From Chloroflexota bacterium (GTDB taxonomy: Bacteria; Chloroflexota; Anaerolineae; Anaerolineales; Villigracilaceae): 56,367 nt of DNA. Below are positions 31,244 to 45,901 of this stretch, piece after piece (the first letter of the stretch is position 1; every line of letters begins with the position of its first letter). The notes below the pieces were generated by a model. The model was not told where the DNA came from, searched no databases, and was given only the letters and a program-made list of their open reading frames with translations. The position numbers and the translations under genes are program-made. The stretch covers positions 1-56,367 of the forward strand of contig JAIOAQ010000020.1 in the NCBI GenBank assembly GCA_019873735.1, in the 5' to 3' direction.

Positions 31244-34200
31244 ATGCCTGAAGCCAAAAAATCCCAACCAGTTGAGCCTGAAGCCAGCCAAGAACGCAGC
31301 GTCACCATCGGCGGCAATGTGGACGGATCGGTCGTTGTCAGCGGCAATCAGAACGTGATTTACGTCAATGGAATGCCGGTGGCTTTGCCGGCCAGCGAGG
31401 GCGAGGCGTCCCACCCCCTGCGCGTCCTGACCGTGGTGGCGCGCCCCCTGAACACCAGCGAACTGCCGGAGATTGCCGACGCCTGGTCGCTGACCGACGG
31501 TCTGCTGGCGGTGGAGGCGCCCGTAGAGGCGCGTTTCGTCCGCCCGCCGACCGTCCGCCAGTGGGAGGCGGAAATTGACGGCGGCTGCGACATTCTGCAC
31601 TTCGACGGCCACGGCACGGCGGAAGAGGGCGGCTTCCTGCTGTTCGAGACGGAGGACGGCCTGGCCGAGGCGCTGCCCGCCGACGAGTTCATCCGGAAAC
31701 TCCAGAAGGCCGGCCAGCCGCCGAAACTGATCCTCCTCTCGGCCTGCCAGTCGGCCAGGGGAGAGAAGGGCGGCCTGGCCGGGCGCATCGCCCGCGAGGC
31801 GAAAATCCCGGCCGTCATCGGCTTCAGCGAAAGCGTGCCGGTGAACGTGACCATGATTTTCGTCAAGCGCCTGTACGCCGCCCTGGGCGCCGGCCGCCCG
31901 GTGAAGGAGGCCTTCGAGGCCGCCCGCCTCGCCCTGGGCGAGATGACCGTTTCCCTCCCGCCGGAGAAGCAAGGCGCGCCAGCGCGCACCCTGCGCGCCG
32001 CCGACCTGCCCGTCCTGACCGGCAAAGGCATCGGAGAGCCTTTGTGCCAGGCCCAGCGCGGACGCCCGCAGGTGGAGCGCGAGCCGCTGGTGGGCGTGCC
32101 GTCTCCGTCGGAATCCGGGCGCTTCTACGGCGTGTTCGACGCCCGCAGCGACCCGCCGGCCGGACGCAAAGCCCTGCTGGTCAGGGCCGCCCGCGCCCTG
32201 CTCGACGGGCAAAAATTCGTCGTCCTGACCGGCGTGGGCGGCATCGGCAAGACCGCCCTGGCCGCCGCGCTGGCCCGCCGGCTGGCGTGGCGCTTCCCCG
32301 GCGGCGTTTTCTGGGTCAACGGGGCGGACTACATCGAGAGCGGGCTGAGTCTGGATGACGCCCTGGCGCCCTTCGCCGCCGCTTTTGGGCAGGACTTCCT
32401 GAAACTCCCGACGGCCCAGAAACGGCAGGCGGTGCTGACCTATTTCGAGCGCATGGAAGCCCCCGCCCTGTGGGTGGTGGACAACGCCGACGCGGCCGCC
32501 GAGGACGTCTGGCGCATGGCGCGGCAGGTGCCGGGTCGCAGCGCCGCCCTGTTGACCAGCCGCGAACGCCCCGAATACGGCGGATGCGTGATCTCGCTCG
32601 ACGGGATGGCAGAGGCCGAGTCCCTGCTCTTCCTGCTCGAGGAGACAGCGCGGCGCCAGAATCGGCCGCTTGCATGGGACAAAGCGTCCTTTCAGACCTG
32701 GGTCGAGATCGCCTCCCTGCTGGACGGCCATGCCCTGGCGCTGATGCACGCCGCCGCCCTGATCGCGGAGGAAGGGCTGGAGGCGGCCCTGAAGGCGATG
32801 CGCGCCAACCCGGCGCGCGGCGACACCGCCCGCCGTTTCGACTTTTCCTATGGACGATTGACGGCCGACGAGAAGCGATTGCTGCACCGCCTGGCGGTCT
32901 TTGCCGCCGATTTCGACACCCGGGCGGTCGAGGCGGTTTGCACGGTTCCATTGGACGAGCAGGATCAAGACCTGCTCCCCGGCTGGGAGGAAGGCCTGCG
33001 CGCCCTGGCGCGCAAATCGTTCGTCGAAGTGCGGTTCTGGAGCGCCGACCACCGCCGCTACCGCCTGCACCCGGTGCTGCGCGAATACGTGCGCGGGCGA
33101 CCTCACCCCATCTCCCCTCTCCTCATGGGAGAGGGGGCGAGGCCTGCCCCGAGCGAAGTCGAGGGGGTGAGGGACACATGGCGCATGGTGCAGTACTACC
33201 TGGCCCTGGCCGGGGCTGCCCGTGACCTGCTCGGCGATACCGAAAATGCGCTGACTGCCGTGCGGTTCGCCGAAATCGAGCGCCTGAACCTGCTGGCTGC
33301 GCAGGAGACCTGCCTGGTTCAGGGAAAATACCAAGAGGTCCTTCAGTACATGTACACACTCGATGCACTGTTTGACCGAAGCGGCTATTGGCATGACAGG
33401 AATCGAGTATTGGAAACCGGCCTGAAAGCCAGTAAGAACATGGACGACCAACACATCACTGCAAGGATCCTGGGCCAGATTGGAAACGCAGCCTACCAGC
33501 AGGGAAATTACCCGGAGGCCCGTTCACGGTATCAAGAGATTCTAGAGATTTTTCGGAATTCAGATGATAAGGACGGAGAGTCCATCACTTTACATCAACT
33601 AGGCGTGCTGGCGCAGGCTACGGGCGACTATGCCGGGGCGCGCCGCCTGTACGACGAAAGCCTGAACATCAAAGAGCAGTTGGGAGACAAAGCGGGAGTG
33701 GCAAGCACCCTGCATCAACTGGGGAATATTGCCTACTTGCAAGGTGATTACGCCGAGGCGCGCCGCCTGTACACCGAAAGCCTGAACACTCTGGAGCAGT
33801 TGGGGGACAAAGATGGGGTGGCGCGCAGCCTGCATCAACTGGGCATGCTGGCGCAGGCCACGGGCGACTATGCCGAGGCGCGCCGCCTGTACGCCGAAAG
33901 CCTGAACATCGCCGAGCAGTTAGGGAACAAAGCGGCGATGGCGAACAGCCTGCATCAACTGGGGAATGTCGCCTACTTGCAAGACTATACTACCGAGGCG
34001 CGCCGCCTGTACGCCGAAAGCCTGAACATCCTGGAACAGTTGGGGGACAAAGCGGGGGTGGCGCGCAGCCTGCATCAACTGGGCATGCTGGCGCAGGACA
34101 CAGGCGACTATGCCGAGGCGCGCCGCCTGTACGCCGAAAGCCTGAACATCAAAGAGCAGTTGGGGGACAAAGCGGGGGCGGCGCTGAGCAAGGCTCAGTT

Positions 34201-34354
34201 ATCCTTGCTGGAGGAGCAGGAAGGCAACCTCAGCCAGGCGCTGGCTTTGATCCGCGAGGCGGAGGCAGTTTTTGCATCCCTCGGCGCCCCACAGCGCGAG
34301 CAGGCACGCCAGGTTCGAGAGCGAATCGAAGGAAAACTGAATACAAGTAAATGA
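31244..34354 (+). CDS. CHAT protease - STAND NTPase - TPR protein
   Basis: 1036 residues. An N-terminal SVTIGGNVDGSVVVSGNQNV motif precedes a CHAT (caspase-like) domain with catalytic His123 (LHFDGHG) and Cys168 (ILLSACQSA). A STAND/NB-ARC-like NTPase follows (Walker A GVGGIGKT at 330-337, Walker B-like LWVVDNAD near 410, ALLTSRE). After a 24-residue repeat-derived insertion (620-643), at least six near-identical 40-residue TPRs of the type GDYAEARRLYAESLNI run to the C-terminus. The layout is that of a signal-sensing conflict protein: TPRs sense, the NTPase oligomerises, the protease is the effector. No partner substrate gene is adjacent. GAGGGAAAG precedes the ATG. It is GC-richer than its neighbours. 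Confidence 0.92.
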   Translation: MPEAKKSQPVEPEASQERSVTIGGNVDGSVVVSGNQNVIYVNGMPVALPASEGEASHPLRVLTVVARPLNTSELPEIADAWSLTDGLLAVEAPVEARFVRPPTVRQWEAEIDGGCDILHFDGHGTAEEGGFLLFETEDGLAEALPADEFIRKLQKAGQPPKLILLSACQSARGEKGGLAGRIAREAKIPAVIGFSESVPVNVTMIFVKRLYAALGAGRPVKEAFEAARLALGEMTVSLPPEKQGAPARTLRAADLPVLTGKGIGEPLCQAQRGRPQVEREPLVGVPSPSESGRFYGVFDARSDPPAGRKALLVRAARALLDGQKFVVLTGVGGIGKTALAAALARRLAWRFPGGVFWVNGADYIESGLSLDDALAPFAAAFGQDFLKLPTAQKRQAVLTYFERMEAPALWVVDNADAAAEDVWRMARQVPGRSAALLTSRERPEYGGCVISLDGMAEAESLLFLLEETARRQNRPLAWDKASFQTWVEIASLLDGHALALMHAAALIAEEGLEAALKAMRANPARGDTARRFDFSYGRLTADEKRLLHRLAVFAADFDTRAVEAVCTVPLDEQDQDLLPGWEEGLRALARKSFVEVRFWSADHRRYRLHPVLREYVRGRPHPISPLLMGEGARPAPSEVEGVRDTWRMVQYYLALAGAARDLLGDTENALTAVRFAEIERLNLLAAQETCLVQGKYQEVLQYMYTLDALFDRSGYWHDRNRVLETGLKASKNMDDQHITARILGQIGNAAYQQGNYPEARSRYQEILEIFRNSDDKDGESITLHQLGVLAQATGDYAGARRLYDESLNIKEQLGDKAGVASTLHQLGNIAYLQGDYAEARRLYTESLNTLEQLGDKDGVARSLHQLGMLAQATGDYAEARRLYAESLNIAEQLGNKAAMANSLHQLGNVAYLQDYTTEARRLYAESLNILEQLGDKAGVARSLHQLGMLAQDTGDYAEARRLYAESLNIKEQLGDKAGAALSKAQLSLLEEQEGNLSQALALIREAEAVFASLGAPQREQARQVRERIEGKLNTSK
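33101..33172 (+). repeat. In-frame palindromic element inside the CHAT gene
   Basis: 72 bp bounded by CCTCACCCC and GGGGTGAGG, with an inner CTCCCCTCTCC...GGGAGAGGGG palindrome. It adds exactly 24 codons (residues 620-643, containing SPLLMGEGARPAPSEVEG) between the NTPase and the TPR region without breaking the frame. Repeats of this sequence type also occur between genes in related genomes. Confidence 0.8.
33580..34190 (+). repeat. Tandem 120-bp TPR-coding repeats
   Basis: Near-identical 120-bp units encode successive TPRs. They alternate between two versions, one reading LAQATGDY (33600, 33840, 34080) and one reading (I/V)AYLQ (33720, 33960), which gives a 240-bp higher-order period. This points to recent amplification or gene conversion of a two-TPR block. 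Confidence 0.85.
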
Positions 34355-34833: not shown

Positions 34834-34862
34834 TTGACAAAGCCGCAAAAATTCCCTATACT
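34834..34862 (+). promoter_or_regulatory. Promoter of the LacI regulator
   Basis: TTGACA (34834-34839) and TATACT (34857-34862) have exactly 17 nt between them. The operator at 34867 begins 4 nt later, over the likely start site. Confidence 0.85.
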
Positions 34863-34866
34863 TATA

Positions 34867-34880
34867 GTAACACGTGTTAC
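34867..34880 (+). promoter_or_regulatory. LacI-family operator 1
   Basis: GTAACACGTGTTAC is a perfect 14-bp palindrome with the central CG typical of LacI/GalR sites. It overlaps the start point of the regulator's own promoter, implying autorepression. Its core TAACACGTGTTA recurs at 35948-35961. Confidence 0.88.
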
Positions 34881-34900
34881 TAACGCCAGAGATTCCTGCC

Positions 34901-35926
34901 ATGAGTACCCGCCGCCCGACCAGCCATGATGTAGCCCGCCTTGCCGGCGTCTCGCGCACGACGGTGTCATTCGTGCTCAATAATGTGCCGGGGGTCAGCA
35001 TCAGCGAGGCCACGCGCCAGCGTGTGCAGGAAGCCGCCCGCCAACTGAACTATCACCCCGACTCGGCCGGGCGGAAACTGGCCAGCGGCAAAGCCTGCGC
35101 CATGGGACTGGTGCTGCGTCAAAACCCTGAGCAAGTCTTTGCCGATGCCTTCCTGGTACAGGTTGTTCTGGGGGTGGAGCAAGCCGCTGCCCAACAGGGT
35201 TTTCACGTCCTGCTCAAGCCGGTTGCGCCCGATGACAAAGACGGGTACGCCCGGCTCATCCAGGAAAATCACGTAGACGGCATCATCCTCTCCGGCCCGC
35301 GCCAGGACGATGAGGAAATCCTGCACCTCCACAGTCAGGGCGTTCCGATCGTTCTGATGGGTCAATTGCCCGGCAGCCACATCCCTTATGTGGACATCGA
35401 CGCAGTAGCAGGCGCGGCAACCGCCGTGCGCCACCTGACGGAAAACGGCCACCGGCAGATCGGGTTGATCACCAACGCCCCGCTTTCCTACACGTCCGCC
35501 CAACAGCGGCGGCAAGGATATTTACAGGCCCTGTCGGAAAGCGGCCTGACGCCCGATGAGACCTTGATCCGGCAAGGCAACTATACGCCCGCCAGCGGTT
35601 ATGAGGCCATGCAGGCATTGCTGGCTCGAACCCCGTTGCCTACTGCTGTGTTCGTAGCCAGCGACGTGGTTGCCATGGGCGCCATTCAGGCCATCAAGCA
35701 AGCCGGCATGCGGATTCCAGAGGATATCGCCGTTGTCGGCTTTGACGATATCCCCCTTGCCGCCTATTACGATCCGCCGCTGACCACCATCCGCCTGCCA
35801 GCCTTTGGATTGGGCTGGGCAGCCGGCGAGCGGCTGGCACGTCTGATTCAGGGAGAAAGCCTGCGCCGCCAGGAACTGCTCCTGGAAACACAACTCATCG
35901 TGCGCGCATCCAGCCTCAGGAGATGA
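34901..35926 (+). CDS. LacI-family transcriptional regulator
   Basis: 341 residues. The N-terminal helix-turn-helix reads SHDVARLAGVSRTTVSFVLNN, followed by the hinge helix region ATRQRVQEAARQLNYHPDSAGRKLASGK and a periplasmic-binding-like sugar domain (about 60-335). It should repress its own gene and the aglEFG-treS operon, with release by an alpha-glucoside or maltose-like inducer. The two palindromes at 34867 and 35948 flank the gene and support this. ATG 34901 fits the family start. Confidence 0.95.
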   Translation: MSTRRPTSHDVARLAGVSRTTVSFVLNNVPGVSISEATRQRVQEAARQLNYHPDSAGRKLASGKACAMGLVLRQNPEQVFADAFLVQVVLGVEQAAAQQGFHVLLKPVAPDDKDGYARLIQENHVDGIILSGPRQDDEEILHLHSQGVPIVLMGQLPGSHIPYVDIDAVAGAATAVRHLTENGHRQIGLITNAPLSYTSAQQRRQGYLQALSESGLTPDETLIRQGNYTPASGYEAMQALLARTPLPTAVFVASDVVAMGAIQAIKQAGMRIPEDIAVVGFDDIPLAAYYDPPLTTIRLPAFGLGWAAGERLARLIQGESLRRQELLLETQLIVRASSLRR

Positions 35927-36059: not shown

Positions 36060-37403
36060 ATGAAAGCCAAGTTCGTTCTGTTCGTGATGATCGTTGGGCT
36101 GCTGCTGGCAGCCTGCGGCCCTCAGCCTGCCGAGACAGTAGTCACCGAAGCCGCCCCGGCAGAACCGGCCGCCACCGAAGCCCCTGCTACCGAAGCGCCT
36201 GCCGAACCGGCCGCCCCGGAAATGTGCATGGGCGCGCAGCCAGGCGATGAGTTGACCGTCATGTACGTCTGGTCTGGCGCGGAGGAAGAAAAACTCAACG
36301 CCATTTTCAAGCCGCTGGTGGATACGTGCGGAATCAAGATTGTGGCCGAGTCCACCCGCGACGCTGCCGTCGTGGATACCCGCGTGCAGAGCGCGCCGCC
36401 TGATATCCTCTTCTGGCCCAGCACCGCGCCCGTAGATCTGTACACCGACAAACTCGTCCCGCTCGACACGGTGGGCGGCATAGCAGAAAACTACGCTTCG
36501 TACTGGCTGGACCTGGGCACCAGAGACGGCAAGTGGCTGGCCGTGCCGGTCAAGGCCGATATCAAGTCTATCGTCTGGTACAGCCCGGCGCAGTTTGAGG
36601 CCTTTGGGTATGAAGTCCCCACCACCTTTGAGGAACTGGACGCCCTGGTTGAAAAGATGGTCGCAGACGGCAATGTGCCATGGAGCATGGGGATGGAAAG
36701 CGGCGCGGCTACCGGCTGGACCGGCTCGGACTTCATCCAGGACATTTTGCTGGCCCAGCAAGGCCCCGAATATGTCTCCAAGATCATCTCCGGCGAAATC
36801 CCTTACAACGATGCAGGCGTGCTGCAGGCCTATCAGACCTACTACAAGTGGGCTTCTGATCCCAAGTACACCGTCGGCGGCGCAGAAGGCACACTGAACA
36901 CCGCCTTCCTGGATGCCATCTACAAACCATTTGCCTCCCCGGCAGAAGCCATGATGGTCAAGCAGTCTGGTTTTGCGGGCGGCGAGATCGTCAAGCAGTT
37001 CCCCAACCTGGTCTATGGCACCGACTTTGACTTCTTCCCCTTCCCGGGTGCCAAGGGCATGCAGGGCGGCGCCGACTTCATGATGGTCTTTGGCACATCC
37101 AATGCCACCAAGGCGATGGTTGCCTACCTGACCGGGCCGGAAGGCGCGGCGAATTGGGCGCAGGCCGGCTTTGACCTCTCGCCCAACAAACTGGCGGCCG
37201 GCAAGTACACAGACGCCCAACTGGCCAAGAAGGGTGAAGCCCTGGCGAATGCTGCCGGTTTCACGCCGGATATCGGCGATACCATCCCGGCGCCGTTCGG
37301 CGAGGCCGAGTGGAAGGCCATCATCGAGGTCTTGCAGGGCGGTGACATTCAGGCCGCACTGGATAAGGCCGCTCAGGCCCAGGCCGAAGCCTTGAAGAAA
37401 TAA
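36060..37403 (+). CDS. aglE: Alpha-glucoside ABC transporter binding lipoprotein (AglE-like)
   Basis: 447 residues. The lipoprotein signal MKAKFVLFVMIVGLLLAAC ends in a lipobox (LAAC), so the mature protein is lipid-anchored. A low-complexity Ala/Pro/Glu/Thr linker (about 22-60) follows, then a family 1 solute-binding fold. The sugar specificity is inferred from the downstream AglF- and AglG-type permeases and treS. AAGGAGAGAAG precedes ATG 36060. Confidence 0.88.
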   Translation: MKAKFVLFVMIVGLLLAACGPQPAETVVTEAAPAEPAATEAPATEAPAEPAAPEMCMGAQPGDELTVMYVWSGAEEEKLNAIFKPLVDTCGIKIVAESTRDAAVVDTRVQSAPPDILFWPSTAPVDLYTDKLVPLDTVGGIAENYASYWLDLGTRDGKWLAVPVKADIKSIVWYSPAQFEAFGYEVPTTFEELDALVEKMVADGNVPWSMGMESGAATGWTGSDFIQDILLAQQGPEYVSKIISGEIPYNDAGVLQAYQTYYKWASDPKYTVGGAEGTLNTAFLDAIYKPFASPAEAMMVKQSGFAGGEIVKQFPNLVYGTDFDFFPFPGAKGMQGGADFMMVFGTSNATKAMVAYLTGPEGAANWAQAGFDLSPNKLAAGKYTDAQLAKKGEALANAAGFTPDIGDTIPAPFGEAEWKAIIEVLQGGDIQAALDKAAQAQAEALKK

Positions 37404-37495: not shown

Positions 37496-38407
37496 ATGCT
37501 CCCAACGATTACAAGGCAGGGACGGCTGATTCCCTGGTTATATCTGGCACCTGCATTGGTCATTATGCTTATATTCGTTGTTTTTCCCGTTTTCAATACC
37601 ATCAGTCTCAGCCTGAAAGATAAAACCAGCACGCGCTCTGCAGAGGTAAGTTGCGTGGCAGGCGAACCCTGCTGGGGGAAACTTGAAAATTACCGCTATG
37701 CCCTGACCAACCCGGAAATGACGCAGGCCCTGCGCAACAATGCCCGCTGGCTCATCCTGATGGTGCCCGGAACGGTCATTGTGGGCCTGCTGTTTGCCCT
37801 GCTGGCAGATCGGGTCCCTTATGAAAGCCTGGCAAAGTCCATTATTTTCATGCCCATGGCCATTTCGTTTGTCGGAGCAGGCGTCATCTGGCGCTTCGTC
37901 TATCACATCGAAAGCGGCGGTGGGGAACAAATTGGCCTGCTCAATGCCCTGCTGGTAAGGCTGGGCGCCAGTCCGGTTGCTTTCTTGAGCAATCCGGCCA
38001 TCAATAACTATGCGCTTATGGTCGTGGGGGTGTGGTTGTGGGCGGGTTTCTGTATGACGGTGCTCTCGGCTGCCATCAAAGGTCTGCCCAGCGAGGTACT
38101 GGAAGCCGCACGCGTGGACGGCACCAACGAGTGGCAACTTTTCTGGCGCATCATGCTGCCGATGATCGCTCCTACGCTTCTGGTCGTCACCACCACGATG
38201 GTCATCAACGTACTCAAAATCTTCGATATCGTCTTCGTCATGACCGGCGGAAACTTCGGCACGGAAGTGATCGCCAACCGCATGTTCAAACTCATTGTCA
38301 CCGACACCGGCCGTTCCATGGCGATTGCCGTCCTGCTGATTGTCCTCACCATTCCACTGGTGCTCTTCAATGTATACCGCTTCCGCCTGCAGGAGAGAGA
38401 AGAATGA
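37496..38407 (+). CDS. aglF: Alpha-glucoside ABC permease (AglF-like)
   Basis: 303 residues with six membrane segments. The EAA loop that contacts the ATPase reads EVLEAARVDGTNEWQLFWRI. The first extracytoplasmic loop has two closely spaced Cys (SCVAGEPCWG), possibly a disulfide. AAGGAGGGCAT gives a strong ribosome binding site. It overlaps the next permease gene as ATGA. No ATPase of the MsmX/AglK type is encoded in the cluster, so one must be shared from elsewhere. Confidence 0.92.
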   Translation: MLPTITRQGRLIPWLYLAPALVIMLIFVVFPVFNTISLSLKDKTSTRSAEVSCVAGEPCWGKLENYRYALTNPEMTQALRNNARWLILMVPGTVIVGLLFALLADRVPYESLAKSIIFMPMAISFVGAGVIWRFVYHIESGGGEQIGLLNALLVRLGASPVAFLSNPAINNYALMVVGVWLWAGFCMTVLSAAIKGLPSEVLEAARVDGTNEWQLFWRIMLPMIAPTLLVVTTTMVINVLKIFDIVFVMTGGNFGTEVIANRMFKLIVTDTGRSMAIAVLLIVLTIPLVLFNVYRFRLQEREE

Positions 38408-39618
38408 AACCCTTCAGCCGCCTCAATCACATCCTGCGCAACCTGCCGGTTCACCTGGCTTTGATCATCATGTGCCTGTTGTGGATTCTGCCAACCCTGG
38501 GCCTGTTCGTCACCTCCTTCCGCTCGCGCGAAGCGGTACGCGCTTCGGGATGGTGGACCATCCTTCAACGGGAGCAGCAACCAGGTCAGGCCGGATACGA
38601 AACCTATTGCGCCTCCTGCCATGGTCCGCGCGGCGACGCGTTGGCCGAGGCCGATCTGTCTGACCCGGCTCTGATTGCAAAATACCCGCGCGCCAACCGT
38701 TTGCTGCCCGTCCTGAAACAGGAAATCAACGGCATGCCGCATCTATCTGACCCTGCCTTGCCCGAAAACCCCAAAGACGCCCTGGACACGCTCACGCCGA
38801 TCGTAACGTATCTGCAAACCCTTTCCGGCGAAAGCGATCAAACCGCCCGCCTGACCCTGCGCAACTATGCCGATGCCCTGGTAGGATACAAAGGCACGCA
38901 GGACTACATCACCGACTGCCAACAAGGCACGGCCAGCGCCCTGGCTAAATTCCGCTGCGACGCAAGCGATCTGCTCAACCCGGAGGGCATGGGGCGCGCC
39001 TTTATTAACACCCTGATTGTAGCCATCCCTTCAACCATTCTGCCGGTCTTTTTTGCCGCGCTGGCGGCTTATGCCTTTGCCTGGATGGATTTCAAAGGCC
39101 GTCAGTGGTTGTTTGCCATCCTGGTTGGGCTTCAAATCGTCCCGCTGCAAATGACGCTGGTACCAATTGCCCGCTTATATGTTTCGCTGGGCATGGCCGA
39201 TACGTTTTTGGGCATCTGGCTCTTCCATACCGGCTTTGGCCTGCCTTACGCCATTTACCTAATGCGCAACTTTATCGGCGGCCTGCCGCGCGAAATGTTC
39301 GAATCGGCTTACATAGACGGCGCCAATCACTGGCTGGTCTTCCTGCGCATGGTCTTGCCGCTCTCGCTGCCGGCCATCGCCTCGCTTGGCATTTTCCAGT
39401 TCTTGTGGGTCTGGAACGATTTCCTGGTGGCAAAGGTCTTCCTGGCCACGCATCCCGTCCTGACCGTTCAGGTGACCAACCTGATTGACCCGCGCGGCGG
39501 CAACTGGCATATCCTGACCGGCGCGGCCTTCCTTTCATTCATCATCCCCATGATTGTCTTCTTTGCATTCCAACGCTACTTCGTGCGCGGCCTGCTGGCC
39601 GGCTCGGTGAAAGGATGA
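38404..39618 (+). CDS. aglG: AglG-type ABC permease with inserted cytochrome c domain
   Basis: 404 residues. TM1 (about 17-38) is followed by a loop of about 140 residues, then five membrane segments with the EAA motif [20 protein letters not shown] and the AglG ending [14 protein letters not shown]. AglG proteins have a large loop here; in this one it contains [15 protein letters not shown], a heme c attachment motif (Cys69, Cys72, His73), and NGMPHLSD with a possible axial Met111, closing with a helix [11 protein letters not shown], as in class I cytochromes c. [10 protein letters not shown] then rejoins the usual permease sequence. The frame is continuous across the insertion. The loop should lie outside, where heme c is attached. 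A second Cys pair (DCQQ, FRCD) follows. Confidence 0.9.
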
Positions 39619-39619
39619 T

Positions 39620-41227
39620 ATGCCCTGGTACAAAAATGCTGTCTTTTACGAAATCTACCTGCGGGCATTCTACGACAGTAACGGCGACGGCCATGGCGAT
39701 CTACGCGGTTTGATACAAAAACTGGACTATCTGCAAGAACTGGGCGTAGATTGTCTCTGGCTGATGCCCACCTATCCATCTCCGCTGAAGGATGACGGCT
39801 ACGATATCGCGGATTATCGCAGCATTCATCCAGACTATGGCAACTTAGACGATTTCAAAGCCCTTCTCGAGGCGGCACACGCCCGGAACCTGCGCCTGAT
39901 TCTCGACCTGGTCATCAACCACACCTCCGACCAACACCCCTGGTTCCAGTCTGCCCGCGCCGACCGCAATTCGCCCTTCCGCGATTACTATGTCTGGAGT
40001 GACGACCCGCAGCGTTACAAACGGGCGCGCATCATCTTTTGTGATACAGAGACTTCGAATTGGACCTGGGACGAGCAGGCCGGTCAGTACTACTGGCACC
40101 GCTTCTATGCCTGCCAGCCCGACCTGAATTACGATAACCCGGCCGTGCAGGACGAAATCCTGGATGTGATGCGCTTCTGGCTCGACCTCGGGGTGGATGG
40201 CTTTCGCGTGGACGCCGTCCCTTACCTGTTCGAACGCGAGGGCACCAACTGCGAAAACCTGCCCGAAACTCACGCCTTCCTGCAAAGAATGCGCCGCTTC
40301 GTGGATGAGCACTATCCGGACCGGCTTTTGCTTTGCGAGGCCAATCAGTGGCCGCAAGACGTACGGGCCTATTTCGGTGATACAGAGGGCAAAGAGTTTC
40401 ATATGGCCTTCCACTTCCCGCTCATGCCGCGCTTGTTCATGGCGCTGGCCAAAGCCGATTACACCCCCATCCGCTGGGTATTCGAGCAAACCCCGCCCAT
40501 CCCCGATGACTGCCAATGGTGCACCTTCTTGCGCAATCACGATGAATTGACTCTGGAAATGGTCACGCCAGAAGAGCGCGAATGGATGTGGAAGACCTAT
40601 GCTCCACAACGGCGCATGCGTCTTAACCTCGGCATCCGCCGCCGGCTGGCGCCGCTGCTGGACAACAATCGGCGCAAGATCGAATTGCTCAACTCCCTGC
40701 TTTTTACGCTGCCCGGCGCACCAATCCTCTACTATGGCGACGAAATCGGCATGGGAGATGATCTGAATCTGTCCGACCGCAACGGCCTGCGTACGCCCAT
40801 GCAGTGGGACGCCAGCCCTCAGGCCGGGTTCTCCACGGCCAAACGTCCGTATGCCTCGCCCGTCCCTACCCCCGGCTACCGCCCGCAGGAGGTCAACGTC
40901 GCCGCGCAAATGGCCGACCCGCAATCCCTCTGGCATGCCATCCGGCGGATGATACGCGCCCGCAAGCAATACCCCAGCCTGCAATGCGGCACGCTCCGCT
41001 GGCTGGAGGGCAACGATCCATCTATTGCTGCCTTTGAGCGCGCCTGCAACGGTCAGAGGATGCTGCTCATCCATAACCTGAGCAGCCAAACGCGGCCCTG
41101 CGCCGTGAAAATCACCAACGCAAAAAAGTTGACCAATGCCCTCACCGGGCAGGAATTCATCCACCCCCTGGAATTGCAAAACTATCGCCTGGCGCCCTGG
41201 GAATATCTCTGGCTCTTGTTATCCTGA
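39620..41227 (+). CDS. treS: Trehalose synthase (maltose alpha-D-glucosyltransferase)
   Basis: 535 residues, GH13. It interconverts maltose and trehalose. Catalytic residues: Asp in [10 protein letters not shown], Glu in LLLCEANQW and Asp in [12 protein letters not shown]. The segment [17 protein letters not shown], the stretch [11 protein letters not shown] and [12 protein letters not shown] are specific for TreS rather than plain alpha-glucosidase. No maltokinase domain is fused. The ATG lies 1 nt after the aglG stop. With the transporter it would turn imported alpha-glucosides into trehalose or the reverse. An oligo-1,6-glucosidase is the alternative. Confidence 0.9.
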
Positions 41228-43656: not shown

Positions 43657-45483
43657 TTAAGCCACCAGTTCCTGAGGAATGCCGAGTTTTTGCAAAGTCT
43701 CCGGCTTGGGCAGGCCGTTGGAATCCCAGCCGCGCTGTTCGTAGTACATATCCAGCAGTTTGTTGACGTCTTCCAGTTTGGTGTACTGGCCTTTGGTCAC
43801 ACCGGTCTTAGGCGGATCCTCATAGAAGCGCGGGGCGGGCATGTCCCAGGCGCGGCCAAAGTCGGCATTCTCACGCGCCCAGTACAGGCGGGTCAGATTC
43901 CAGATGCGCTCGCCCACCTTCTCGATGTCTTCCCAGGTGCGGTGAATGCCGGTGATGGCTTCCAGCAGCGGCACGTACAGGTCGCGGTCAATGCCCAGTT
44001 CCACCCACTGCAGGCGGCAGGCGCCCAACACATCGAACATCGGGCGGAAGTGCTGCAGCCAGATGACACGGGCAACCTTCTCAGGGACGACCTTCTCACG
44101 GCCAACCTGGATGTCATAGGTGATGGCCCAGGCGCGGTTGTGATGCGCGCCCACGTCGCAGGTCATGTAGGCCAGCAACATTGCCGTGGCGTTGTGCGTC
44201 TGATAGGCAGATTGCTCCATGCCCTTGACGTGAATGGCGAATTTCTCTGTGCCTTTGCCGATTTCCTGCGAGGCCTTCTTGACGCCGTCGGCCAGCAAGG
44301 CACCCAGGCCTTCCTTTTTGGTGATCATCTCAATCATCTTGAAGACGGCATCGGCATTCCCAAACTTGAGTTCAATGCCGCCGGTATCTTGCTTGGTGAA
44401 GATACCCTTTTCGTAGCACTCCATTGCCCAGGCAATCACATTCCCGGCCGAGATGGTATCAATGCCCATCTCATCGCACAGCAGGTTCGCCTGCGCCACC
44501 GCTTCGATATCATCAATGCCCACGTTCGAACCGAGCAAGCCAATCGTCTCGTACTCGGGGCCTTCAACGTAGGAATTGTACTTCTTGGTCTTGCTGTATT
44601 TGCCGCACGGGCAGGGGCAGCCAAAACAACCCTTATCGGTGACAACGATTTTCTCGCGCATGGTCTGGCCGTAAATGCCCTGTGCGCCCTCAAAGGAACC
44701 GGCGCTAAAGTTGCGGGTGGGCAGTGCGCCGACCTCATTGCACCACGAAGTGACAATGGTGGTGCCGTAGCGCGTCCACTCTTTCAGGCCTTCGGCATCC
44801 TTGCAGGCCTTGTAAAGGGCCATGCCGGCCTTGCGGTAGGCCTCCAGGTCCGCCACAGGGACCGATTTGGTGCCGCGCACAACAATGGCCTTAACCTTCT
44901 TGGAACCCATGACTGCGCCCACGCCGCCGCGTCCGGCCTGGCGGCCAAAGTCGTGGTTGATATGCGCAAAGGAGACCATATTTTCGCCGGCCGGGCCGAT
45001 AACGGCGCACTGGAATTCTTCGCCGAACTTGTCCTTCATCATCTTTTCGACAGTCATCGAACCCTTGCCCCAATATTCGGAGGCATCGCGCAGTTCGATT
45101 TTGTCATCGTCAATGAAGAGGTACACCGGCTTGGGGCTAATGCCTTCCAGGATGATGCTATCCAGGCCTGCATATTTCAGTTCAGCCGTGAAGTGGCCGC
45201 CCATAGAAGCCGAAGCGTAGCCGCCGGTCAGAGGGGCCTTACAAGTCCAGTCGCATTTACCGCCGCCGGCCACCAGCAAGCCCGACAAAGGACCAGAGGA
45301 AATAATGAGTTTATTCTCCGGCCCAAGCGGATCGGCGCCCTTGGGGACTTCCTTGAGCAGGAAATAGATGCCAAATCCGCGTCCGCCGAGGTAATCACGC
45401 GCCAGGTCGGCTGGCGTAGGTTCTTTCTTGACCTGACCGGTCGTCAGATTCACACGCAGAATGTGTCCACCATAACCGTTCAT
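43657..45483 (-). CDS. aor: Aldehyde ferredoxin oxidoreductase, tungsten-dependent
   Basis: 608 residues, usual AOR length. It oxidises aldehydes to acids with ferredoxin, or reduces acids, using a bis-pterin tungsten cofactor. MNGYGGHILRVNLTTGQV and LGGRGFGIYFLLKEV are the AOR start. The [4Fe-4S] site includes GCFGCPCPCGKYS, and a distal Cys lies in LGACRLQW. ATAAGGAGGCAAAG sets the start at 45483; the frame open to 45519 overlaps the ferredoxin gene. It belongs to a ferredoxin-AOR-MoaD operon. Confidence 0.95.
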   Translation of the reverse strand: MNGYGGHILRVNLTTGQVKKEPTPADLARDYLGGRGFGIYFLLKEVPKGADPLGPENKLIISSGPLSGLLVAGGGKCDWTCKAPLTGGYASASMGGHFTAELKYAGLDSIILEGISPKPVYLFIDDDKIELRDASEYWGKGSMTVEKMMKDKFGEEFQCAVIGPAGENMVSFAHINHDFGRQAGRGGVGAVMGSKKVKAIVVRGTKSVPVADLEAYRKAGMALYKACKDAEGLKEWTRYGTTIVTSWCNEVGALPTRNFSAGSFEGAQGIYGQTMREKIVVTDKGCFGCPCPCGKYSKTKKYNSYVEGPEYETIGLLGSNVGIDDIEAVAQANLLCDEMGIDTISAGNVIAWAMECYEKGIFTKQDTGGIELKFGNADAVFKMIEMITKKEGLGALLADGVKKASQEIGKGTEKFAIHVKGMEQSAYQTHNATAMLLAYMTCDVGAHHNRAWAITYDIQVGREKVVPEKVARVIWLQHFRPMFDVLGACRLQWVELGIDRDLYVPLLEAITGIHRTWEDIEKVGERIWNLTRLYWARENADFGRAWDMPAPRFYEDPPKTGVTKGQYTKLEDVNKLLDMYYEQRGWDSNGLPKPETLQKLGIPQELVA

Positions 45484-45493
45484 CTTTGCCTCC

Positions 45494-45901
45494 TTATGCA
45501 GCCACTGCTTCTTTTTCACCCAGCCAGAGGGCGCTGGTGCCGCATACGGCTACGCAGTCGCCGCAGGCTGTACACTTCCAGGCAGTATCTGCCAGTTCCG
45601 GGCGAACAAACATGACTTCCTCCGGGCATTCTGGAACGCAGGCCTCGCACAGGTTGCATTCAGAGAATTCCACATAATACGCGCCCTGAGCATCTTGTTT
45701 GATGGCCTCTGTCGGGCAGACTGCCGCGCAGTCACCGCACTGGGTGCACACACGCACTTTGTAAACCCCAGGCGCCGGGAAATGGGGCTCAATAACCAAT
45801 GAAGCCTTTTTAGGGTTGTTCTCGCCAAAGACGCTCAGCGAGCAAGCCACCCGGCAGGCATTACAACCCGAACATCTGGAACTATCTACATATAGACGCA
45901 T
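45494..45901 (-). CDS. Polyferredoxin partner of AOR (four 4Fe-4S clusters)
   Basis: 135 residues with 16 motif cysteines in four CxxCxxCxxxC blocks: CSGCNACRVAC, CTQCGDCAAVC, CNLCEACVPEC and CTACGDCVAVC. It resembles the AorB-type electron transfer subunit, passing electrons between AOR and a soluble carrier. AAAGGAGTTCGTC precedes the ATG. It is the first gene of the operon, 10 nt before aor. Confidence 0.93.
   Translation of the reverse strand: MRLYVDSSRCSGCNACRVACSLSVFGENNPKKASLVIEPHFPAPGVYKVRVCTQCGDCAAVCPTEAIKQDAQGAYYVEFSECNLCEACVPECPEEVMFVRPELADTAWKCTACGDCVAVCGTSALWLGEKEAVAA

Follow-up and report, generated by a model that had tools for sequence, protein, structure and literature searches.

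A predicted cytochrome c domain is conserved in the outer loop of AglG-type sugar permeases of Chloroflexota

Introduction

What would a cytochrome c domain do inside a sugar permease? ABC sugar importers are not, to our knowledge, heme proteins. In the window (the whole stretch of 56,367 nucleotides of contig JAIOAQ010000020.1 analysed here, from a Villigracilaceae member of the Chloroflexota), a sequence-only reading had placed a heme c motif, CASCH at residues 69-73, in the TM1-TM2 loop of an AglG-type permease; the motif is present there, in one continuous open frame. The locus raises the questions of whether the fusion is genuine, whether the domain is likely to hold heme and what it might do on an importer. 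Among the matches listed by a full-text literature search, none was, by its title or the start of its abstract, concerned with cytochrome c in an ABC permease; domain databases may list the cytochrome-permease architecture automatically.

Genomic context

The fusion gene belongs to the following set of features in the window.

34834-34862, ahead of the LacI-type gene: promoter-like site (the number of such sites is not above chance)
34874..35926, + strand: LacI-type transcription regulator, an open frame upstream of the operon, its name read from sequence
36060..37403, + strand: solute-binding lipoprotein, AglE-like (NCBIfam sugar-binding protein matches, below cut-off)
37496..38407, + strand: first permease, AglF-like (BPD_transp_1, E 1.1e-14)
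38404..39618, + strand: second permease, AglG-like, whose TM1-TM2 loop holds the cytochrome domain (404 aa, frame open throughout)
39620..41227, + strand: GH13 alpha-amylase-family enzyme, alpha-glucosidase-like (Pfam Alpha-amylase, E 5.8e-103)

A binding protein, a partner permease and an alpha-glucosidase-type enzyme are thus all present. The AglG-type start shares the stop of the upstream AglF-like gene in an ATGA overlap (38404-38407), and the GH13 start lies one base past the AglG-type stop; the earlier impression of a functional-looking operon and start was borne out, gene and operon both being intact. Relatives of these genes recur at 66 loci recovered by scanning a species-genome collection with one pattern, [YW]xD[AS][LM][VM]GY[RK]G, which lies in the loop outside the cytochrome domain. 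An AglF-like permease was found at 65/66 loci, an AglE-like binding protein at 63/66, a GH13 enzyme at 54/66 (some loci end before the GH13 position) and a LacI-type regulator at 49/66 (downstream in one). Some operons carry an MGH1-like/trehalase-like glycosidase gene between permease and GH13 (L061:9429-10934, L062:9261-11057).

Elsewhere in the window, positions 31244-34354 encode a large protein with C-terminal tetratricopeptide-like repeats, read from the translation only, and an in-frame low-complexity stretch (PHPISPLLMGEGARPAPSEVEG) that resembles a dispersed repeat read as protein. On the - strand, an aldehyde ferredoxin oxidoreductase-like gene (43657-45519) adjoins a gene (45494-45901) that is ferredoxin-like and contains several Cys clusters, both named from their sequence.

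The permease

The second permease comprises the following parts, with conservation given for a 61-member alignment of the window and 60 of the 63 scan loci that carry CxxCH (left out were L038, L054, whose alignment ends at residue 365, and L071, a near copy of L068).

38449..38514, + strand: TM1, residues 16-37, a helix in the full-length model
38557..38841, + strand: cytochrome c domain, residues 52-146, flanked by the invariant GWW (49-51) and a TLRNY stretch
38608..38622, + strand: heme c attachment motif CASCH, residues 69-73, an invariant CxxCH with His73 as predicted proximal ligand
38740..38742, + strand: His113, proposed distal heme ligand (His in 59/61)
38917..38958, + strand: Cys172 to Cys185, a probable disulfide in the remainder of the outer loop (both Cys invariant in 61/61)
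39052..39591, + strand: permease core, residues 217-396, with a putative EAA-type loop ESAYIDGA at 300-307 (PF00528, BPD_transp_1, E 6.4e-12)

Within the core, E300, Y303, D305, G306, A307 and P319 are invariant, and we take ESAYIDGA to correspond to the EAA consensus. Its nearest NCBIfam models are GlcU, MalG and UgpE, all with scores far below their cut-offs; the named-equivalog thresholds were not reached for MalG (87 of 261 bits) or GlcU (146 of 340). The permease is 42 % identical to that of Sinorhizobium and shares its gene order, including an adjoining alpha-glucosidase, so the label 'AglG-type' appears fair. As judged from the sequence, the AglG/MalG assignment extends to the wider family and no further, and alpha-glucosides are the putative substrate.

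A full-length structural model (mean pLDDT 77) displayed a MalG/SugB-like fold outside the insert, and its top 18 PDB matches were chains of maltose, trehalose (LpqY-SugABC) or alginate importers. The joints of the domain were of low confidence in this model, with pLDDT of 58-65 around residues 41-60 and 141-150.

Cys172 and Cys185 are also present in eight members of the same clade that have no cytochrome, and are absent from the seven short-loop relatives compared through the loop (L119, L120, L122, L124, L128, L129 and L130). The first outer loop of the AglF-like partner (37496-38407) contains Cys53 and Cys59, both conserved at 65/65 loci. The Cys pairs in both outer loops are probable disulfides and, since the Cys are found in cytochrome-free members too, would not depend on heme.

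The cytochrome c domain

Pfam identified both Cytochrome_CBB3 and BPD_transp_1 in the one continuous protein. Cytochrome_CBB3 (PF13442) matched residues 58-124 with E 2.8e-6 and 28 bits against a cut-off of 27, rising to 31.7 bits (same cut-off) when the domain was taken in isolation, whilst the PF00034 match of the window protein fell below its own cut-off. Taken alone, the domains of all 61 aligned members matched PF13442 at E 0.01 or better, and C69, C72, H73, G74, W50, W51 and L100 are invariant in 61/61.

A structure prediction without a cytochrome c fold would have counted against the sequence-only reading; the predictions point instead to such a fold. A model of residues 48-146 was confident (mean pLDDT 89.8, pTM 0.79), with helices before CxxCH, at residues 97-105 and, C-terminally, at 123-140. 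Searching the PDB with this model in Foldseek, at E up to 10, returned 25 matches, all c-type cytochromes or their complexes (where a chain was named by its complex alone, we took it to be the cytochrome); these matches were weak, the best at E 0.12 and 0/25 at E 0.001. The single loop, used as a sequence query against the PDB, found nothing better than E 0.053, and a profile search of the PDB recovered CcoP-type chains at E 3.3e-7 and 6.9e-7. The top four entries of that profile search, with some others, were repeat beta-propeller proteins matched via many tiny pieces, and were discounted.

Selection on the domain was estimated from non-overlapping pairs with a core dS of 0.05-1.2 and a domain dS below 2. 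In 13/15 pairs dN/dS was 0.08-0.29 for the domain vs 0.02-0.20 for the rest of the protein, values that indicate purifying selection on the domain, weaker than that on the permease. The two outlying pairs, L055-L092 (1.10, rest 0.47) and L043-L093 (0.48, rest 0.36), are probably misestimated, given that the rest of the protein is high in both.

The proposed sixth heme ligand

The sequence-only reading had also proposed Met111 as axial ligand, within NGMPHL. This string does read as claimed at residues 109-114 of the window protein, but Met111 (38734-38736) occurs in 1/61 members, namely the window sequence itself, and NGMPHL was therefore rejected as a conserved heme-ligand motif. Elsewhere column 111 holds Q (31), K (10), S (6) or G (4), and also R/E/H/T/A. 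What is kept instead is His113, invariant also in the 26 class-sample sequences (the window and 25 others); the two exceptions in the 61-member alignment, L055 and L092, carry a His at column 111.

His113 follows the 97-105 helix and precedes the C-terminal one, in the region where class I cytochromes have their sixth ligand. Its conservation and placement lead us to propose His73/His113, and hence His/His, ligation. Some c-type cytochromes do ligate heme by His/His, so the missing Met bars only the common class I form. A bis-His heme of this kind would probably be of low potential.

Distribution of the fusion

A search of the class (396 genomes) gave, among the matches listed, 25 other sequences that span the loop, defined within those listed matches by a start at residue 11 or earlier, and that run to residue 404. 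All 25, at 53-78 % identity, keep CxxCH at the same place. The 66 loci of the species-genome scan are all labelled as Chloroflexota or lineages within it, and 63/66 have CxxCH, the exceptions being L100, L102 and L103. The two sets overlap, 16/25 class-sample rows being identical in the tree columns to a species-genome row. In a phylum sample of 400 genomes, 12 had a match at E <= 1e-100 (10 of these matches full-length), and all 12 fall within the family and order of the window. CxxCH is lacking in more distant AglG relatives, which align over the whole length at 39-43 % identity. The fusion sought across the AglG family is found in dozens of genomes and is absent from these more distant relatives. 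No viral relatives were confirmed.

The scan loci include Levilinea saccharolytica strain KIBI-1, where the same gene stands near either end of contig NZ_LGCM01000045.1 (L038 and L039, equal in gene length and in identity); a duplication or an overlap in the assembly may account for the pair.

A profile of the domain run over 298 class genomes matched 22 places in 22 genomes, each of which was an AglG gene by its coordinates, and no protein other than an AglG-type permease passed E 1e-7 in those genomes. Across the 298 genomes the cytochrome domain is accordingly single-copy per carrier and confined to AglG.

An assembly join in the loop, against which the sequence-only reading had cautioned, or an artefact of gene calling is so improbable as to be set aside, the same fusion site recurring in dozens of assemblies that include Levilinea saccharolytica strain KIBI-1, with CxxCH kept in 25/25 class matches and 63/66 loci. 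The fusion is real and general, beyond chance.

Other AglG relatives carry different material at the same point of the loop. Eight of them (L115, L116 and L132-L137) have unrelated stretches of roughly 75-120 residues, and L131 (G201:C109:19515-21153) has about 300 unrelated residues, probably beta-rich, between GWW and the NY stretch. The AglG outer loop thus appears, on sequence comparison, to be a place where different domains sit.

Phylogeny, gain and loss

We built a tree from the permease without its loop, comprising 116 rows of which 100 were different; the truncated sequences L118 and L126 were left out. One clade (SH-aLRT 99) holds all 88 cytochrome-bearing rows together with eight that lack the domain, and short-loop and other-loop AglG proteins fall outside it. 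On the best tree the label needs four changes, most simply one gain and three losses, whilst the starred branches force only two. Grouping the bearing rows as one exclusive clade was rejected (p-AU 0.0038), as expected if losses occurred; several separate gains are less parsimonious than one gain and three losses. In the eight clade members without a cytochrome a short linker replaces it and the permease is otherwise present, and their persistence indicates that the permease does not need the domain to persist.

L118 (G357:C10:38738-40400) is a truncated permease copy without TM1 and most of the loop; a second AglG-like permease adjoins it, and the genome gave no Cytochrome_CBB3 match.

Cytochromes and heme assembly in host genomes

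The window's own genome was searched for the cytochrome c maturation genes that the fusion would call for, and such genes were found: two Cytochrom_C_asm (PF01578) matches exceed the cut-off, one with a stop codon inside the matched stretch. It also has a COX1 match and eight further Cytochrome_CBB3 matches in seven proteins, 6/8 over cut-off; these other proteins fit the domain profile only around CxxCH. Amongst class-sample carriers PF01578 was present in 25/26, the exception (G054) being 73 % complete, and it is so common in the class (357/396 genomes) that its presence in carriers says little.

We then compared carriers with seven loss genomes; the eighth cytochrome-free member, L117, is on a plasmid record and stands outside this count. 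Two of the seven are 83 and 90 % complete, and three have no completeness given. The 34 tested carriers were the window's genome, 25 from the class sample and eight behind species-genome loci. Cytochrome_CBB3 matches were found in 0/7 loss genomes vs 33/33 tested carriers, but the permease itself counts as such a match, so the fair count is of carriers with a further one: 31/34, the window's genome included. In carriers G075, G013 and G012 the single PF13442 match is presumably the permease, and 67/396 class genomes have no PF13442 match. COX1 was found in 0/7 loss genomes vs 22/34 tested carriers, 12/34 being without it. PF01578 is kept in 5/7 loss genomes; a rule of no domain without assembly genes was rejected on this count, and an absence of assembly genes is not by itself enough to account for the losses. 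Independent contrasts of loss against cytochrome content number two on starred branches and three on all (sign test p 0.5). That domain loss tracks the absence of other cytochromes is suggestive and, with two or three contrasts, not significant.

Possible roles of the domain

Conservation of the fusion across dozens of Chloroflexota genomes suggests that sugar uptake is linked to the state of electron transport, and the domain most likely serves an alpha-glucoside importer as a redox-responsive module. In the fuller form of this proposal, to which we give an even chance, the importer is AglEFG-like and a bis-His heme c in the AglG loop exchanges electrons and reports redox state to the importer. 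The domain would be exported together with the outer loop of the permease, receive covalent heme c from the cell's own assembly machinery and hold it by His73 and His113. It may be dispensable for transport as such, as inferred from three losses, on the best tree, from permeases that stayed whole. The heme would exchange electrons with respiratory-chain cytochromes on the outer face, and its redox state could, by the simplest route, affect docking of the solute-binding protein, or of the partner permease, by the loop. Sugar uptake would in this way be matched to the supply of electron acceptor. A more specific version, which we hold tentatively and with less confidence, is that the heme senses how oxidised the outer-face cytochrome pool is and raises or lowers alpha-glucoside import accordingly, Anaerolineae with cytochromes keeping the domain and those without them shedding it. 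Both redox gating and an electron relay fit the pattern of domain loss.

In such a relay the heme would leave transport unregulated and, with the transporter as an anchor near the sugar, would carry electrons between the respiratory chain and a redox enzyme at the cell surface, or an external donor or acceptor. A small single-heme domain of a CcoP-like Pfam family, kept mainly where cytochromes are plentiful, would suit that purpose. We nonetheless consider it unlikely: the genes that recur alongside are the LacI-type regulator, the binding protein, AglF and glycoside hydrolases, the neighbour genes tested included no redox enzyme, and in the 298 genomes the domain profile matched the AglG permease and no free protein.

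Just as doubtful is a structural role, with the heme as scaffold of a stabilised mini-domain that helps to dock the binding protein. The unrelated stretches at the same loop position in L131, L115, L116 and L132-L137 speak for such a role, and it is at odds with the finding that loss accompanies the absence of other Cytochrome_CBB3 proteins even though 5/7 loss genomes keep PF01578. A cytochrome fold retained without heme is less probable still; heme attachment is not visible in sequence and the domain diverges faster than the permease, yet C69, C72 and H73 are invariant in 61/61, each member has a distal His, and all class-sample carriers except the incomplete G054 have PF01578. The redox-responsive module remains our preferred reading.

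Comparison with known systems

The AglG/MalG-type permeases (AglEFG of Sinorhizobium, MalG and SugB) are alike in the permease core and in the GWW and NY flanks, and the AglEFG system is also alike in gene order, with a binding protein, two permeases and an alpha-glucosidase. The Sinorhizobium permease differs in having no CxxCH and an unrelated stretch in the loop. We know of no cytochrome in MalG or SugB, nor of a heme in Bce-type ABC transporters. With CcoP-type and class I c-type cytochromes (PF13442) the domain shares CxxCH, the Pfam match, helix layout and PDB matches, and it differs from them in its insertion in an ABC importer and in a His instead of the conserved Met ligand.

An extract of PMC10916295 describes the X183 cytochrome domains of Teredinibacter turnerae as parts of extracellular multidomain redox proteins with His/Met ligands. 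On that account they are likewise small c-type domains tied to carbohydrate use outside the cell, and an X183 structure (8q1v) was among the PDB matches of our domain; they differ in not being transporters and in having His/Met rather than the proposed His/His ligands. Bce-type ABC transporters, according to an extract of PMC3023708, have a large outer loop and work with a signalling system. By analogy, the likeness may lie in that loop and in signalling, with antibiotic sensing and resistance in the place of sugar.

Significance

If the proposal is true, sugar uptake in these bacteria would be wired to respiration at the transporter itself, and a redox-gated ABC importer that is a heme protein would be of a kind not known before. 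The conserved single-copy cytochrome in the loop would make this permease a direct test case for redox control of ABC importers, with the sister proteins that lost the domain as ready-made controls.
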